NCBI RefSeq assembly: GCF_900095385.1
Contig: NZ_FMID01000025.1
Coordinates: forward strand, 1 to 56,263
Direction: 5' to 3'
Length of the DNA stretch: 56,263 nt
Source: Methanoculleus chikugoensis
Lineage (GTDB): Archaea; Halobacteriota; Methanomicrobia; Methanomicrobiales; Methanoculleaceae
The notes beneath the pieces are model-generated. The model saw only the letters and a list, made by a program, of their open reading frames with translations. It did not search any database and was not told the origin of the DNA. Within the stretch, counting starts at the first letter, position 1. The number at the start of each line of letters is the position of its first letter. This document shows positions 5,553 through 53,106 of the stretch, one piece after another. Made by a program: the position numbers and the translations under genes.

Positions 5553-5980
5553 GGCTCTGTTGAAACCATATTCTGATCTTCACCCTTACCCTGATGAGGG
5601 CGGTGCCGGACTAGTCTCGTCCCTAGGGCGATCTTTCGTCTCTGGGGCATGTCCTCATACAGTGACCGTGGCGGCTATCGCCATTGGGGGTGGGGCTGAC
5701 GGGGAGGGGGAGACCCCCTCCCCTGTCTCCCCTATCTGAGACACCAGTAACCCCCACCCCACCCGGCCTCCGGCCTCCTCCTCCGCACCTTCGGTGCTCA
5801 TGCTCCGGCCCTACAGCCCGTCGCACCCCGCCCCGGGGGCGGGGGCAGTCATGGCGATATGCGATGGACGGAACGCCCGGAGCGCAAACACCGCAGATGT
5901 GCAACCTGGTGAAAAGCCATACCCATGAGTCCCCCTGATTGTGGCCACCTGGAACAAACAGTTGGGGTTTCAACAAAGCC
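5553..5980. mobile_element. Non-autonomous element with 15-bp terminal inverted repeats
   Basis: The left end GGCTCTGTTGAAACC (5553-5567) is matched by the inverted right end GGTTTCAACAAAGCC (5966-5980), 14 of 15 bases. The interior has no credible gene. It is filled with GC-rich self-complementary blocks (for example around 5715-5745 and 5850-5870) and carries the dispersed core repeat found at four other sites in this window, bounded by TATCGCCAT (about 5677) and ATGGCGATAT (about 5853). I see no clear target-site duplication. It looks like a MITE-type derivative of an insertion sequence, or an element that picked up the core repeat; no transposase is present. Confidence 0.65.
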
Positions 5981-8164: not shown

Positions 8165-8625
8165 GGTCAGTACCTCCTCTCTCAAAGAACCGCTATCCGT
8201 CATTCTCTCGTCAACCCTCCTGCCGATCTCCTCCGCCATCCGGTTCTTGATGAGGTCATCCCGAAAAGATCCTGAACGTTCCACACTCCCTGATCGGAAC
8301 ACTCACCTCCGAGGTTTCTCCCCTCTGAACGATATCCCGGGCAAGGGGGGTGAAACGGCTTCCCATCGGGTATCGCCACTCGGTGGAGGGATCGGGAGGG
8401 GGTGTCCCCCTCCCGGCAAAGAGGTTTTAGGACAACTTCGATATCAAAGTAGGCGAAGTTGATGAGTTCCTCTTTCGTCGGGAAGTAGTGAAAGAGCGTC
8501 CCGTTTGAGATGCCGGCCTCGCGCGCGATGAGCGACGTCGGGGTGCCGTGGAATCCCCTCTCCGTGAAGAGCCTGACGGCAGTGGCGACGATGGCGGTCT
8601 TTTTTCTGTCCCTGTCCTCGGTCAT
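8165..8625 (-). pseudogene. TetR-family regulator remnant, split by a MITE and truncated at the AKR start
   Basis: The frame from ATG 8623-8625 gives a full TetR DNA-binding domain: AIVATAVRLFTERGFHG, TSLIAREAGISNGTLFHYF and TKEELINFAYFD. At 8439 it runs into a 188-bp MITE. Beyond the MITE another frame carries the natural continuation IKNRMAEEIGRRVDERM, then SLREEVLTM, which leads straight into the aldo/keto reductase at 8164. Removing the MITE plus one 3-bp duplication (191 bp) joins the two TetR parts in frame. The usual ligand-binding half (about 100 residues) is absent, so there were two lesions: a deletion that joined TetR to the AKR start, and the MITE insertion. As it stands the protein would read into MITE sequence and end at 8200. 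It may once have controlled the adjacent reductase. Confidence 0.8.
8252..8439 (-). mobile_element. MITE copy 1 (188 bp), inserted in the TetR gene
   Basis: On the minus strand the left end is GAAGTTGTCCTAAAA (from 8439). The right end, inverted, is GAGGTCATCCCGAAA (from 8252). The flanking triplet GAT is duplicated (8249-8251 and 8440-8442; ATC on the minus strand). The interior contains an inverted repeat (GGGAGGGGG/CCCCCTCCC) and no gene. It aligns over its whole length with the element at 52870-53058. The 3-bp duplication and TIR suggest mobilisation in trans by a DDE transposase (IS5-type groups make 3-bp duplications); the parent IS is not in this window. Confidence 0.85.
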
Positions 8626-10192: not shown

Positions 10193-10791
10193 CTCTCATG
10201 GAGACGATCCGGGCGTACCTCGGATGGTGCCCCATGACGGGGGCGGTGCAGGCGGAACTCGCGGTGCGGTCGGCTGCGGCCGTAGCGGCGGGCGGGCGGG
10301 ACTGCGTCCCCCGGAACGAACCCGGGTGGTGGCGCCGCTATCACAACCAACTCTTCACCATGGCGCTGGCCGCATCGGCGGCGACAGCAGCGGTTTATCT
10401 CCTGATCGGGGATGAGTTGGGGTATCCGGATGTGTGGACGGGCCTTGCCATCGGGGCTGGAGGGGCCCTCGGCTTCCTGCTCGGTCACCGGAAGCAGTAT
10501 GCGCGGGTTGCCGCCGGCGAGTTCATCAGGGCCAACATGAGCCGGCAGCAGCGCGTCATCCGGGACCTGGGCGGGCCGGTGGCCCTCATTCTCTCCGCCG
10601 CCATCATGGTGCTTTTTGTTTGGAACGGCATGTTCGGCCAGATCATCGGGTTCATGCTGGCCGTGAGCCTCATCGGGTGGGCGACGTACGGTATCACGAT
10701 CCTCTGGGAGCGCCGGCACCGGACAACCCTGATCGCGGAGAAGGGGTCGATGTATATCCTGGATACGACAGCGGAGGGTGAAAACGCATGA
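10189..10791 (+). CDS. GWCP-motif membrane protein, subfamily 1 (first copy)
   Basis: A 200-residue protein. Residues 1-15 form the shared amphipathic leader (METIRAY, then LGWCP with Cys14). A variable linker ends in PGWWRRYHNQL (45-55), just before the first of four predicted membrane helices (about 56-73, 82-98, 128-145, 150-171). Between helices 2 and 3 is a conserved basic loop (RKQYARVAAGEF, MSRQQR). The C-terminus is LWERRHRTTLIAEKGSMYI. It closely resembles the next two genes, so these three are recent tandem duplicates. The architecture recalls the uncharacterised DUF1673 family of methanogens; that link is from memory. It is translationally coupled on both sides (ATGA). Function unknown. 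Confidence 0.7.
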   Translation: MTLMETIRAYLGWCPMTGAVQAELAVRSAAAVAAGGRDCVPRNEPGWWRRYHNQLFTMALAASAATAAVYLLIGDELGYPDVWTGLAIGAGGALGFLLGHRKQYARVAAGEFIRANMSRQQRVIRDLGGPVALILSAAIMVLFVWNGMFGQIIGFMLAVSLIGWATYGITILWERRHRTTLIAEKGSMYILDTTAEGENA

Positions 10792-11396
10792 TGCTGAAGG
10801 TCACCGGGGCGATACGGAGGCTTATGGGCTGGTGCCCCATGACGGGGTCGATGCGGCCGGAGCTCACGATGCGACCGGCGACTGCCGCGGTACCGGGCGG
10901 GCGGGACGGCCCCCTCCGGACCCGGCCCGGGTGGTGGCGGCTCCACCACAACCAGCTGCTGGTCGCGGCAATAGCCTTCTCGGCGGCGGCACCGGCGCTC
11001 TTTATCCTGGTCGAGGATGCTCTCGGGCACCTCGCCATGTGGACGGGTCTTGCCGTCGGGGTAGGAGCGCTCCTCGGCTCTCTGCTCAGTTACCGCTCCC
11101 GGTATGCGCGGGTTGCCGCTGGCGAGTTCCGCAGGGACAACATGACCCGAAGACAGCGCATTGTCCAGTACCTGAGGGTGCCGGTGGCCTCCGTTCTCCT
11201 CGCCGCCGGTATGGCGTATTTTGTTCTGGGCGAGATGTTCGACCGGATGCTCGGGGTCGTGCTGGGCATGTGTCTCATCTGCTGGATCTGGTACGGCCTC
11301 ACGATCCTCTGGGAGCGCCGGCACAAGGCGATCATGATCGCGGAGTGGGGGTCGGTGTATACCGTGGATACGGCAACAGAGGGTGAACGCGTATGA
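10788..11396 (+). CDS. GWCP-motif membrane protein, subfamily 1 (second copy)
   Basis: A 202-residue paralogue of its neighbours. The leader is AIRRLMGWCP, the pre-helix motif PGWWRLHHNQL, followed by four membrane helices, the basic loop YARVAAGEFRRDN between helices 2 and 3, and the tail LWERRHKAIMIAEWGSVYT. It starts ATGATG, with the first ATG overlapping the upstream TGA, and its own TGA overlaps the next ATG. Conservation of the leader, the WW/HNQL motif and the WERRH tail, with drift in the linker, suggests the ends contact partners while the linker is under little constraint (inference). Confidence 0.7.
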   Translation: MMLKVTGAIRRLMGWCPMTGSMRPELTMRPATAAVPGGRDGPLRTRPGWWRLHHNQLLVAAIAFSAAAPALFILVEDALGHLAMWTGLAVGVGALLGSLLSYRSRYARVAAGEFRRDNMTRRQRIVQYLRVPVASVLLAAGMAYFVLGEMFDRMLGVVLGMCLICWIWYGLTILWERRHKAIMIAEWGSVYTVDTATEGERV

Positions 11397-12004
11397 TAAT
11401 GAAGTTCTCCGAGACGATACGGAGGCTGATGGGCTGGTGCCCCATGGCAGGATCGGTGCGGATGGATCTCTCAGTGCGGCCGGCGGCGGCCGCGGCAGCG
11501 GGCGGGCGGGACGGGCTCTTTCGGGCCGGGGCCGGGTGGTGGAGGCACTATCATAATCAGCTGCTGGTCATGGCGCTGGCTGTCTCGGCGGTGGCAGCGG
11601 CGTTCTTTACCCTGGTCGAGGACGCTTCCGGGTATCCGGCCGTATGGATGGGTCTTGCCATCGGGGCGGGAGCGGTCATCGGCTTCCTGCTCGGTTGCCG
11701 AAAACAGTATGCGCAGATTGCCGCCGGCGAGTTCCGCAGGGAGAACATGAGCCGGCAATTGCGCATCACAAGGGAACTGAGTGTGCCGGTAGCCTTCATT
11801 CTTCTTCTCGCCCTTATGGCTTATTTACTCCAAGAAGGCTTGTTCGACCAGATCCTCGGGTTCATGCTGGGCTTGAGCCTCGCCTTCTGGGCTCTATATG
11901 GCATCACGGTCCTCTGGGAGCGGCGGCACCAGGCGACCCTGATCGCAGAGAAGGGATCGATGTATGTCGTAGATATGGAGCGCAGCGAGGAGGAAATTGT
12001 ATGA
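11393..12004 (+). CDS. GWCP-motif membrane protein, subfamily 1 (third copy)
   Basis: A 203-residue paralogue: leader ETIRRLMGWCP, motif GWWRHYHNQL, four membrane helices, loop YAQIAAGEFRRENMSRQ, and tail LWERRHQATLIAEKGSMYV ending in acidic residues. It is coupled by ATGA overlaps to both neighbours. The three subfamily-1 proteins could form a hetero-oligomer, since keeping three similar coupled cistrons is otherwise hard to explain; this is inference only. Confidence 0.7.
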   Translation: MIMKFSETIRRLMGWCPMAGSVRMDLSVRPAAAAAAGGRDGLFRAGAGWWRHYHNQLLVMALAVSAVAAAFFTLVEDASGYPAVWMGLAIGAGAVIGFLLGCRKQYAQIAAGEFRRENMSRQLRITRELSVPVAFILLLALMAYLLQEGLFDQILGFMLGLSLAFWALYGITVLWERRHQATLIAEKGSMYVVDMERSEEEIV

Positions 12005-12702
12005 CGCTGAGGCTTTCCGAGACGATCCGGAGGTGGATGGGCTGGTGCCCGAACGCGGACACTAACAGGTTCAGTCGACGCTACGCCACGCTGGACGATG
12101 AGATCGTGACCGGAACGGCGAAAAAAAGCGACCGGGAGGCGGTGGAGGGGGCGCTGGTGGACTATGGCCTTACCGGGAATCCGGCAACGTACCTCATTCT
12201 AATTGTTGCCACCGCCCTTCTCATCGGCTGCTTCTTCGTTACGTCTCCTGCAGGGAACCTGTTTCTGCTGGTTATCATACTGGCTTTCTCCGGTGTGGAG
12301 TTGTACGGGGCCCTGAGAAAGGCCCGTGTCGAGATCTCTTCGGATACGATCACTATCCGGCGGCCACTCTTCCGCCCCATAGTCATCCCGAAGGATGCCG
12401 TCGAGAAGGCGGAGGTGGGAGAGAAAAAACTCCCCGTCCCTTCCTGGCTCCTCGTGGCGGCGCTCGCGGCGATCTTCGTGTCGGCGGCCGGCGGCATATA
12501 CTCTGGATGGGGTGATCCGACCTCCATGCGGTTCATCTTCGGGCTTGCCGCCGCGATCTTCTTTCCGGTGCTCTTCTACCGCACCTACGTGCGGATCCGC
12601 TACCTGCAGGTCCTGGTGATAACGACCACGAAGAAGAGGATTGCTGTGATCTACACGGACGATCCCAAACGGATAGCCCGAGTGCTGGGGGTAGCCAGAT
12701 GA
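12001..12702 (+). CDS. GWCP-motif membrane protein, subfamily 2 (first copy), split PH-like domain
   Basis: A 233-residue protein. It shares the leader (ETIRRWMGWCPN, Cys16) with subfamily 1, but the rest differs. It has a conserved EAVEGALVDYG motif (46-56), two membrane helices (about 62-80 and 86-103), then beta-strand-like sequence VEISSDTITIRR, FRPIVIPKDAVEKAEV (110-139). A second helix pair follows (148-167, 176-194). The tail VLVITTTKKRIAVIYTDDP (204-222) ends in a helix, KRIARVLG. The strands before and after the second hairpin look like two halves of a bacterial PH-type domain. Coupled by ATGA on both sides. Function unknown. Confidence 0.7.
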   Translation: MTLRLSETIRRWMGWCPNADTNRFSRRYATLDDEIVTGTAKKSDREAVEGALVDYGLTGNPATYLILIVATALLIGCFFVTSPAGNLFLLVIILAFSGVELYGALRKARVEISSDTITIRRPLFRPIVIPKDAVEKAEVGEKKLPVPSWLLVAALAAIFVSAAGGIYSGWGDPTSMRFIFGLAAAIFFPVLFYRTYVRIRYLQVLVITTTKKRIAVIYTDDPKRIARVLGVAR

Positions 12703-13388
12703 CGTTCTTCATGGAATATCTCAGGAAGAAGCTCGGTTGGTGCCCGAACGCAGCAGTGACCGGCACCGTCCGGCGGCGGTACGCCGCGCCGGCCGGCGAG
12801 GTCGGTATGGCGAGAGAAGGCAACCGGGATGTGGTGGAGGGTGCACTGGTGGACTACGGCCCGATCGGCACCCCGGGGAGGCTCTTCATTCTGCTTGTTG
12901 CCGGCGCTCTCCTCACTGGATGCCTCGTCGTTCTGGCACCTGCTGTGGGCCTTTTTGTGCTGGTCATCATACTGGCTTACTCCGGTATGGAGATCTATGG
13001 AGTCATGCGAAGAGCCCGTGTTGAGGTCACCCCGGACACGATTACCATCACGCGACTCTTTCGGCCCATCGTCATCCCGAAGGACGCCGTCGTGAAAGTG
13101 GAAGTGAAGGAGAACAAACTCCCCATCCCTTACTGGCTCCTTGTGGGGGCACTGGCGATGATCTTCCTATCGGCGGCCGGCGGTATATACTATGGACTCT
13201 CAAATCCGGCCTCCATGCGGTTTATCTCCGGGCTTGGCGCCGTGATCTTCTTCCCCGTGATCATCTACCGCACCTACGTGCGGACACGTTACCCGCGAGC
13301 CCTGACGATAACGACTCCGAAGAAGATCGCCGCAATCTACACCGATGACCCCGAACGGATTGCCCGAACGCTGGGGGTAGCCGGATGA
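12699..13388 (+). CDS. GWCP-motif membrane protein, subfamily 2 (second copy)
   Basis: A 229-residue paralogue of the preceding gene: leader MEYLRKKLGWCPN, then RRRYAAPAGEV, VVEGALVDYGPIG, a helix pair, VEVTPDTITITRLFRPIVIP with KDAVVKVEVKENKLPIPYW, a second helix pair and the tail TPKKIAAIYTDDPERIARTL. The PH-like strands are the best-conserved part between the two copies. It starts by ATGA overlap with the upstream stop and ends by ATGA overlap with the next gene. Confidence 0.7.
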   Translation: MTFFMEYLRKKLGWCPNAAVTGTVRRRYAAPAGEVGMAREGNRDVVEGALVDYGPIGTPGRLFILLVAGALLTGCLVVLAPAVGLFVLVIILAYSGMEIYGVMRRARVEVTPDTITITRLFRPIVIPKDAVVKVEVKENKLPIPYWLLVGALAMIFLSAAGGIYYGLSNPASMRFISGLGAVIFFPVIIYRTYVRTRYPRALTITTPKKIAAIYTDDPERIARTLGVAG

Positions 13389-14125
13389 CGGTCTTCATGG
13401 AGTATATCCGGAAGAAGCTCGGCTGGTGCCCGAACGCCGGCGCCGTCAGACCTGTCCGCCAGCGATATGCCGAGCCGGCCGGCGAGGTCGGGCTCGGGGC
13501 GGCGGCGGGCGGCAACCATGAGATGGTGGAGGGTGCCCTTGTGGATTACGTCAGTCCCCGCCTCTTACCGCTGATACTGCTTGCCTTCGGTGGGTTCTTC
13601 GGGCTCCTCGTAGTAGGCTTCCTGATCCCCCAGTTGCGTTCCGGGTTCTATATCCTCCTCGCCCTCACCTTCACGACGTATGCCGCAGTGCGCCTCTATC
13701 TCGATACGAAACAGACAGTAGTAGAGTCCTTCGGGGATGCCATCGTCGTCCGGAGACCACCTTCCCGACCGCTCATCTTCGGAAAGGATGTCATCAGGTC
13801 GGTCGAGGTGAAAGAGACAAACCTTCCCATTCCACGCTGGGCGTTCGCGTTGCTCTTTCTTCTCCTGATTGCGGGGATATTCTTCGGCCTCGCAGGGAGG
13901 GGGTTGACGCAGTTTTTAGGTGGCCAGGTCATCGACCCCGATCTCTCGTTTCATCTTCTCTTTTCAGCCGGCTTTGCGGTGTATTTGCTAGCGAAGTTAT
14001 ATCACGCCCTTCTCAGTCTGGGGTATCCCGGTTACCTCAAGGTGAAACTGGAGCCCGCCGGATACCTTCATATCTACACGGACGACCCGGAGAGGGTTGC
14101 GGTGCTGCTCGGTTCCTCTCGATGA
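13385..14125 (+). CDS. GWCP-motif membrane protein, subfamily 2 (third, divergent copy)
   Basis: A 246-residue protein and the last cistron of the overlapping unit. The leader is MEYIRKKLGWCPN, followed by RQRYAEPAGEVG and MVEGALVDYVSPR. The helices diverge from the two upstream copies, but the PH-like strands remain (VVESFGDAIVVRRPPSRPLI, then IRSVEVKETNLPIPRW), as does the tail (GYLHIYTDDPERVAVLLG). The second membrane hairpin is longer, with a polar loop around 175-190. No gene overlaps its stop; the ABC ATPase begins 92 bp later. Confidence 0.7.
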   Translation: MTVFMEYIRKKLGWCPNAGAVRPVRQRYAEPAGEVGLGAAAGGNHEMVEGALVDYVSPRLLPLILLAFGGFFGLLVVGFLIPQLRSGFYILLALTFTTYAAVRLYLDTKQTVVESFGDAIVVRRPPSRPLIFGKDVIRSVEVKETNLPIPRWAFALLFLLLIAGIFFGLAGRGLTQFLGGQVIDPDLSFHLLFSAGFAVYLLAKLYHALLSLGYPGYLKVKLEPAGYLHIYTDDPERVAVLLGSSR

Positions 14126-25265: not shown

Positions 25266-25430
25266 CAGTGGACCTTGGGGGTATCGCGTCTGGAGGAGTG
25301 CGACTGGCCGAAGGGCAAGAGCACGAGATGAACGAAGTTCTTTGAGAGGGCAGGGGAGGGGGATGCTCCCCCCTCCCCGCCGGCCCCACCCCCGCGTGGC
25401 GATATCCACCTGAAATCCGAAGACGGTGAT
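25266..25430 (+). repeat. Dispersed GC-rich core repeat, copy C1
   Basis: It begins CAGTGGACCTTGGGGGTATC, contains GGGGAGGGGGATGCTCC with its complement CCCCTCCCC forming a hairpin, and ends TGGCGATATCC followed by GAAATCCGAAGACGG. The start and end modules match copies D and E. Confidence 0.6.
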
Positions 25431-25730
25431 ATATGACCGAAGAGAGCAGCGTAATTCAATTAAGATTCTCAAAAAACTTCGAGAAACAATCTCCTCAACG
25501 CTCACCTCCTTTAGATTCCCATCCCCCGGCTCCTGCTCCCCGCCCCATCTGTCGCACCTCCGGGCCATCGCATCCTATAAACAGTCGTTTCTGACAAACC
25601 GCCGCTTCCTAGAGGATTGTCACCCTCCGATGCTTTGGTTTGTGCCCTCCTGTCAGTCCCAACTCATACACGGCTTTTCATGGGGTATCGCACCTTCGGT
25701 GCTCGAGCTCCGTTCCTGCCGGAACGTCGC

Positions 25731-25900
25731 TTATCGCCACGCACTGCCCCCGCCCCGAGGTGTGGGGTGCGACGGGCCGTAGAGCCGGAGCATGAGCACC
25801 GTCAGGTGCGAATGAGGAGCGCGAAGTGCGGGAGGGGGGGGTTACAGGTGTCCGTGTGTAAGGTAGAGACAAGGGAGGGGGGCTGCTCCCCTTCGAAGAA
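25731..25900 (-). repeat. Dispersed GC-rich core repeat, copy C2 (inverted)
   Basis: This copy is in the opposite orientation. The reverse complement of 25766-25801 matches 5792-5827 in the element at 5553 with only two to three differences over 36 bases (shared CGGTGCTCATGCTCCGG). The same module order follows in reverse, down to the GGGAGGGGGGCTGCTCCCC hairpin. Confidence 0.6.
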
Positions 25901-29010: not shown

Positions 29011-29633
29011 TACCTGAAGGATTTTCATTCCGGGAATTTGAGCACATTTAGTGCGATTTACGTGGCAGAACGATCTCAATCAAGGACAAAGCCCTGTGCA
29101 CTGGACCGTGGGGACATCGCCATTGGGGGGGAGGCGGCTCGCGGGGAGGGGGGATGCTCCCCCTTCCCCTGTTTCTACCGCATAATGGGTGCCTGTAACC
29201 CCCACCCCACCCGGCCTTCGGCCTCCTCCCCCGCCCAAGGGCGGGGGCAGTCATGGCGATATTCCCTCGAAATCCGTATCCGGGGATGCGCAACAGCAGG
29301 GGCATAGAAGCTCTTCGATCTTCGAAAAAATAGCGGATAAAGCGCGATATTTGAGCGTAACCGACTCCGAGCCTCCAACCGCCAGAGCGTCCCTTCTGCA
29401 CGCCCCTGCCCTTCCTGATGCGTGCCCCACGTGAAGAACAATCACAAACCACTCCGCTCCGCTGCTCCTCCTGCCCCGACGGGTAGGAGGTACCTATCAT
29501 TTATAACCGGAGAACGCCCTATAATGTAGTAATTCCGTCAATCCCGGGAAGTGGCCAGAAGTCGGTTTGCTCCCGTCGGGCCGCCGCCCCGAAGGGACTT
29601 CCCTTTCAGGAATGGCGCAACACTGGTGTCACG
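29011..29633. other. Gene-free region carrying a core repeat
   Basis: About 620 bp between pelA and the EMC6-like gene. Its main content is the core repeat copy at 29099-29293. The flanks are AT-richer, and a promoter for the following genes may lie near 29495-29525 (ATTTATAAC, TATAATGTAG). No reading frame here looks like a gene. Confidence 0.45.
29099..29293 (+). repeat. Dispersed GC-rich core repeat, copy D
   Basis: It begins CACTGGACCGTGGGGACATC, then the GGGGAGGGGGGATGCTCCCC hairpin. The module TAACCCCCACCCCACCCGGC (29196 on) is nearly identical to 5748 on. It ends GCAGTCATGGCGATATTCC and GAAATCCGTATCCGGGGATG. Relative to the copy at 5553-5980 it lacks the CGGTGCTCATGCTCCGG segment, showing that modules are gained or lost. 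Confidence 0.6.
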
Positions 29634-31772: not shown

Positions 31773-32209
31773 AGAAAGGACGGCCGGTTAATTTCTTTGG
31801 TTTCAGAGACTTTGAGGCTGATTTGATACTCCGGCGGTCGCTGCATGCTTTTTTTTGACGAGATTGATGGAACGTAAAGACGCGGGAAATCTCAATACAG
31901 TGGACCGTGGGAGTATCGCCACGGGGGGAACGACTGCCGGAACGAGGAGTTCGAGAAACCCGAAGGGTTTCGCTGTGGGGACAGGGGAGGGGGGCAAGCC
32001 CCCCTCCCCGTCAGCCCCTCCCCTCAATGGCGATAGCAGGTGGGAATCCGTGTCTGAGGATGTGCAGCTGGCTAAAAAATGGAGCAATGAGAGACCAGAG
32101 GTCTCAAAATTGTGATCGACGGAGCCTGAGCACCGCAGAGGTGTGAATTGTACCCGGTGGCATCAACAAGCGGCTCTCCTTCGCTCAGCTCAAACCCTGT
32201 GATCCCTGG
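31773..32209. other. Gene-free convergent gap with a core repeat
   Basis: Convergent intergenic region of about 440 bp between ABCE1 and the propeller gene. A T-run at 31849-31856 could end the ABCE1 transcript. The core repeat copy occupies 31898-32069. Otherwise nothing is recognisable. Confidence 0.45.
31898..32069 (+). repeat. Dispersed GC-rich core repeat, copy E
   Basis: It begins CAGTGGACCGTGGGAGTATC and contains the hairpin AAACCCGAAGGGTTT and a GGGGAGGGGGGCAAGCCCCC stem. It ends CAATGGCGATAGCAGGTG, GAATCCG and GAGGATGTGCAG. The end modules match copies C1 and D. Confidence 0.6.
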
Positions 32210-52790: not shown

Positions 52791-52869
52791 AGAATGACCT
52801 TTTGGTGATATTTTGAGATCCAGCTGTTATATAGTCATTCTAGGGCTGATGTCAGGATAAATTATGATG

Positions 52870-53058
52870 GAAGTTATCCCAAAACGCTGTTACCGGGAGG
52901 GGGTGTCCCCCTCCCGGACCCTCCCCCGCGTGTCGATATCCAGTGGAAAGCCGTTTCATCCCCCTGGCTCAGGATGTGGCTCAGATGGCGGATACCTGAG
53001 AATTAAGGGCTCCGATCAGGGTATGCCGGGGGTTCGGAGATCTTTTTGGGATGACCTC
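52870..53058 (+). mobile_element. MITE copy 2 (189 bp), intergenic
   Basis: The left end is GAAGTTATCCCAAAA (52870 on) and the right end, inverted, GAGGTCATCCCAAAA (ending 53058). The triplet ATG is duplicated on both sides (52867-52869 and 53059-53061). It matches copy 1 (8252-8439, opposite strand) along its length, including CCGGGAGGGGGTGTCCCCCT and AAGCCGTTTCA. It fills most of the 316-bp gap between two convergent glycosyltransferase genes. Confidence 0.85.
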
Positions 53059-53106
53059 ATGGTAACGGGTTTGAGGTAGTTTGTTGTACGCTTAAGGTAA
53101 ATTCCG

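Follow-up and report, generated by a model that had tools for sequence, protein, structure and literature searches.

Several described repeat systems resemble the GC-rich, non-coding intergenic repeat analyzed here, named F1. The Correia elements of Neisseria are MITEs for which inversion has been reported (PMC10969869), and they share with F1 a short intergenic MITE form, inverted ends, some 100 or more copies, restriction to a genus, and inversion. However, Correia elements lie mostly just upstream of genes and carry promoters, whereas F1 lies mostly downstream, and the likeness is one of form and behavior; F1 also differs in its IS5-type carrier transposase and archaeal host. ERIC, an intergenic imperfect palindrome of about 130 bp, is comparable in its species-variable copy number and internal insertions, but it is bacterial; F1 is set apart by a core of several hairpins, by tandem arrays and changes of orientation, and by a carrier identified as IS5-type. 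REP/BIME, which are GTAG/CGTC-tagged palindromes (PMC3733652), form like F1 a dispersed intergenic palindromic mosaic with units both ways round, whereas F1 has a larger core, no recognised tagged REP unit, and IS5-type ends with target duplications; the survey of these tagged palindromes does not mention a methanogen (PMC3733652). Archaeal MITEs, such as SM1-SM4 of Sulfolobus and those of Haloquadratum walsbyi (PMC10969869), are also non-autonomous IS derivatives, but F1 keeps a conserved folded core across several flank classes, with inversion and nested palindromes remodelling the element. F1 would add to the few described archaeal MITEs a methanogen example linked to a named transposase type. 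In the small inversions at plastid hairpins, a segment flips recurrently between inverted repeats of 11-24 bp (PMC12928735), as F1 does between repeats of 8-11 bp, although the segment flipped in F1 is about 150-190 bp long and belongs to a dispersed archaeal repeat family. In the open-access papers searched for repeats or MITEs of Methanoculleus, no description of the F1 family was found. The family is best read as an archaeal Correia/ERIC-like MITE mosaic.

The window (the whole stretch of DNA analyzed, 56,263 nt) is contig C68 of a 2.65-Mb Methanoculleus genome assembled in 70 contigs, and its NFACT protein shares 92-96% identity with the counterparts in Methanoculleus sediminis, Methanoculleus sp. 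FWC-SCC3, Afa-1, and others. Sequence extracted for the analysis covered about 0.43 Mb in targeted stretches. The original prediction, made from the window alone, had grouped five of its gaps into one modular family with a set module order and had suggested a covariance model from all genomic copies; F1 is present in all five gaps. The model of the core, built on 17 copies and applied with a cut-off of E <= 0.001, gave 92 matches in the 2.65-Mb genome (best E 1.2e-33), bearing out both a dispersed family and a conserved order beyond base composition. This copy number is a lower bound, because F1 repeats break short-read assemblies and several contigs of the same genome terminate within copies (the ends of C11, C21, C30, C36, C53, C58, and C63 fall inside or beside them). 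Covariance-model search of 120 sampled genomes of the order Methanomicrobiales found matches in 44, including 33 of the 35 Methanoculleus genomes (32 of 34 when the source genome is set aside), mostly in many copies. Outside the genus, many matches were carried by G039, from a different genus of the same family, and the remaining ten positive genomes had one to five weak matches each. Searches of phage and plasmid records for F1, and of IMG/VR for its exact arm pattern, returned nothing. F1 is a real, genus-specific mosaic repeat.

Table 1. Positions of F1 copies and related elements in the window.
Feature	Position	Strand	Description
Larger MITE-like element enclosing copy 1	5553..5980	+	Left end GGCTCTGTTGAAACC at 5553-5567, right end GGTTTCAACAAAGCC at 5966-5980
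F1 core, copy 1	5676..5859	+	TATCGCCA...TGGCGATA; nested two-hairpin F2 insert in third-hairpin region; 109.9 bits, E 1.4e-21
Related partial element, ~193 bp	8250..8442	+	B-type arm, TATCGCCA, GGGAGGGGG hairpin; different outer ends ATGAGGTCATCCC...
F1 copy 2 with arms	25266..25430	-	Short-form core at 25282-25404 containing F2-type insert; arms A-type TGGACCTTGGGG and B-type GAAATCCG
F2 palindromic insert	25697..25731	-	Between B-type arm ACGGCTTTTCATGGGG and TATCGCCA of copy 3; not in L064, L093
F1 copy 3, truncated	25732..25900	-	Begins at TATCGCCA, opposite end missing; F2 unit nested at ~25767-25811; L064/L093 alignment
F1 core, copy 4, complete	29115..29261	+	Outer stem, G-run hairpin, linker, C-rich strand, GGCC hairpin, CCCCCGCCC hairpin; 131 bits
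F1 core, copy 5	31914..32035	-	Short form with F2-type insert; covariance-model match
Related partial element, second copy	52867..53060	-	Inverted relative to 8250-8442

All five copies listed originally stand, and the list had overlooked two related partial copies and the larger element around copy 1 (Table 1), whose target duplication is no longer visible. Copy 3 gave no model match, but it aligns by BLAST to window positions 5754-5844 and to contig C18. The pelota-EMC6 spacer that holds copy 4 likewise carries F1 in L064, L065, and L069, and the copy 5 spacer downstream of ABCE1 does so, in either orientation, in L063, L069, L070, L087, and L093. Comparison of filled and empty sites at the NFACT, pelota, and ABCE1 spacers gave no clean empty site, the spacers being too diverged or occupied. 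The two partial elements (~194 bp) contain a B-type arm and the first hairpin of F1 but differ from it in their outer ends, ATGAGGTCATCCC...TTTTGGGATAACTTC, which may be imperfect inverted repeats. Separately, positions 10196-13491 contain tandemly duplicated stretches with periods of 605 and about 690 bp, 70-84% alike, which are probably duplicated genes.

The core of F1 is about 147 bp long and is bounded by TATCGCCA and TGGCGATA, inverted repeats of 8-11 bp. Between them lie, in order, a G-rich strand that carries a GGGGAGGGGGG hairpin, some 20 nt of variable linker, the C-rich strand TAACCCCCACCCC, which pairs back onto the first G-run, and two further hairpins, GGCC/GCGC and CCCCCGCCCC; outside the core are arms of an A type (CAGTGGACCGTGGGG) and an inverted B type (GAAATCCGTG). 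The predicted ability of the inverted-repeat ends to form a long stem was supported in the complete copy 4, where the TATCGCCA/TGGCGATA pair closes the predicted stem and the RNA fold has a z-score of -3.05, with none of 200 shuffles equally stable (z -1.65 with DNA folding parameters). In the alignment, which had been fitted to the model, two-sided compensation was observed in 20 of 45 pairs, a level reached by none of 500 shuffles; two-sided cells numbered 104, compared with 31 for shuffles and 13-22 for slid partners. These compensatory changes support pairing in F1, and a DNA palindrome would give the same pattern; the wobble count, 127 G-U against 76 A-C mismatches, shows no clear preference for a one-strand RNA. 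The suggestion of a structured RNA is thus supported as regards pairing, and an RNA hairpin and a DNA hairpin alike fit the data. No Rfam 15 family matched the window at its gathering score, and copy 4 had only chance-level matches.

Some F1 copies, including that at 5553-5980, are enclosed in an element of about 330-430 bp with 15-bp inverted ends GGCTCTGTTGAAACC, seen in L277, L304, L312, L314, L327, and the window (5553/5966). Flank homology among these copies extends about 120 nt to the left and 76 nt to the right of the core and ends at GGCTCTGTTGAAACC. The element of L277/L303 (contig C50 of the same genome, 341 bp) has the 8-bp duplication CGAGGTCC exact at both sides, and that of L312 (another species, 329 bp) has TAAAAAAG; these are the only two F1 elements with an exact duplication, and TAAAAAAG is low in complexity, while L327, L314, and L304 have 8-bp duplications with one or two mismatches. 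Identical ends and exact 8-bp duplications were also found in MITEs without F1 (L302, L311, and L321). A full IS of 1010 bp in genome G029 (L301:506-1515) has the same ends as the F1 MITEs and the 8-bp duplication CAAGCATC, and its transposase is an IS5-family DDE enzyme (PF01609, E 9e-22; NCBIfam IS5, E 1.9e-68). Intact copies of this type were found only in G029 and G021 (a second copy, 88%), and the source genome today has no close copy of the transposase, just a 29% relative. The 341-bp element of L277 encodes no transposase, only overlapping low-complexity ORFs of 56-85 aa that lie mostly inside it. The GGCTCTGTTGAAACC-ended subset thus combines inverted ends, a fixed 8-bp duplication, an autonomous relative, and the lack of a transposase of its own, as in an IS5-derived MITE. 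Since ends and duplication size are shared with a full IS5-family IS, the carrier can be assigned to the MITEs of an IS5-type transposon, and an IS5-type transposase probably moved the F1-bearing elements in trans. The IS6 family, considered as the source of the ends because of its 8-bp duplication and similar terminal sequence, was ruled out, the transposase being of the IS5 family. A further dispersed repeat of CTCACGCGAAGCCGCGAAG type was observed in spacers of several species (L302, L342, L344, and L347); the L302 copy sits within an IS5-type MITE whose 8-bp duplication is exact.

The majority of F1 copies in the source genome have no IS5-type ends. In another flank class, homology ends about 45-50 nt from the core, some copies lie in direct tandem arrays whose period is near 225 bp, and partial F1 also occurs in the third kind of element, with other ends, at 8250-8442 and 52867-53060. 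The copies without IS5-type ends showed no excess of target duplications (271 shared 6-mers against 243 in re-paired controls), and a lone 10-bp duplication at C30:18052 is within chance. Across the whole family, therefore, inverted ends and a duplication do not accompany every copy, and the several flank classes, together with the third kind of element, indicate that F1 is a module common to several outer contexts. The view that the repeats are unlike a simple IS accordingly suits most copies and fails for the subset with terminal inverted repeats and 8-bp duplications.

Comparisons at orthologous sites showed the core in both orientations. At site 1, the flanks of L333 and L335/L336 align in the same sense (88.5% over 148 columns on the left and 82.7% over 75 columns on the right), whereas the cores are 90.4% identical over 188 columns when inverted and 71% over 115 in the same sense. 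The inverted match takes in the otherwise variable linker, and its breakpoints are at TATCGCCACG/CGTGGCGATA. Automatic comparison added further inverted core pairs at site 1 (L332 against L338, L339, and L349) and site 3 (L408 against L418). No clear core-only flip was found among the full-length cores at site 2, where whole elements are inverted (L364/L377 against L362/L365). Within the source genome, both arm-core combinations occur, A-core-B 22 times and B-core-A 12 times. A single assembly error is unlikely because the compared sequences come from separate assemblies, and the core has inverted repeatedly inside fixed arms between species. In the proposed mechanism, the core would fold into a hairpin or a cruciform and be flipped when strands exchange, or the template switches, at the base of the stem; we infer this from the stem and from the precedents of plastid hairpin inversions and Correia inversion. 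Such sites provide many natural replicates of inversion between short inverted repeats at orthologous positions, so that both flip rate and mechanism become measurable.

A second family, F2, comprises units of about 45 nt in which GGAGC(N)YGAG links two hairpins whose sequence varies. Orthologous spacers show its clean gain or loss, for example at 25697-25731 relative to L064 and L093, or in the pelota spacer of L064 and L065 relative to L069. Nested F2 insertion accounts for much of the presence and absence of F1 modules, and short-form cores without the right half (copies 2 and 5) make up much of the remaining variation. The original idea of a recombination target gains support in that F1 has repeatedly inverted locally, been duplicated in tandem, and received nested insertions. 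At the end of contig C48 (L041/L218) and in contig C34 (L216/L282) of the same genome, a TnpB C-terminus has a right-end hairpin, GGAAACCCCGCCCTTCAGGGCGGGG, that abuts an F2 unit inside an F1 copy, the two places being 97% identical over 319 nt. Assignment of F2 to an IS200/IS605-type MITE, based just on this TnpB adjacency at two near-identical places, was not established.

These results are probably explained by an IS5-type transposase that would move an F1-bearing MITE subset in trans. F1 copies persist at equivalent spacers across many species while being remodelled, through flipping of the core (~150-190 bp) bounded by the 8-11 bp repeats TATCGCCA/TGGCGATA, direct tandem duplication, and nested insertion of F2 palindromes; no host function would be required. 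Chance likeness among GC-rich intergenic DNA, which the G and C runs and low complexity could favor, is practically negligible given model E-values down to 1e-33, motifs conserved also outside those runs, restriction to the genus, and the slid-structure controls on pairing. For F1, a REP/BIME identity with mobilisation by a RAYT-type (Y1/IS200) transposase is very improbable. The REP/BIME-like reading originally offered does describe a dispersed, intergenic, palindromic mosaic with a second hairpin family nested in it; however, no GTAG-/GGAG- or CGTC-type tag was recognised by eye in the core alignment, and the carrier ends and 8-bp duplications match a DDE IS5 element. F2 is a more plausible candidate for this reading than F1. 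Scarcely more probable is a core that serves as a dedicated cassette for site-specific inversion by a recombinase: the recurrent flips with breakpoints at TATCGCCA(CG) and the two arm-core combinations in one genome would suit it, but the copies are dispersed, the inverted repeats are unequal in length, incidental inspection noticed no linked recombinase gene, and the whole-element inversions that include flanks are not expected from a fixed-site enzyme.

The genomic placement of F1 raises the alternative that it is a selected structured gene-end element, acting as a bidirectional terminator, mRNA 3' stabiliser, or insulator and kept in convergent spacers. Among 65 clusters placed with a simple codon-usage gene caller, 35 were convergent, 23 co-directional, and 7 divergent, and none lay inside genes; this distribution, the occupation of equivalent spacers across many species, and the covariation of the stems all favor such an element. 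However, selection against promoter insertion also predicts the convergent excess, copies between co-directional genes divide about 14:9 in orientation relative to those genes, the core orientation flips, and the wobble count does not single out RNA. In addition, some relatives (at site 1, for example, L337, L343, L353, and L354) have the same gene end without F1, so a necessary local function is unlikely. A selected gene-end element is therefore unlikely overall, and rather less likely still is a domesticated transposon module that has become an orientation-independent gene-end element genus-wide, selected at convergent spacers, its core flipping as a by-product of the hairpin. T/A runs are frequent among the insertion targets of the MITE class, and such targets fit archaeal gene ends. 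Under the preferred IS5-type explanation, the convergent excess would reflect tolerated sites downstream of genes, and a secondary role of F1 as a gene-end hairpin is possible. The location at gene ends also eases testing of an archaeal terminator or insulator role.

Two further observations concern F2. A satellite survey named tandem families of M. marisnigri with the numbers 45 and 51 (PMC6749651), which may be F2 arrays. At the site 1 gene end, a conserved protein gene carries F2 palindromes in its 3' part in some species (L339, L345, and L350); they apparently extend or interrupt the gene, recalling the Rickettsia palindromic elements.
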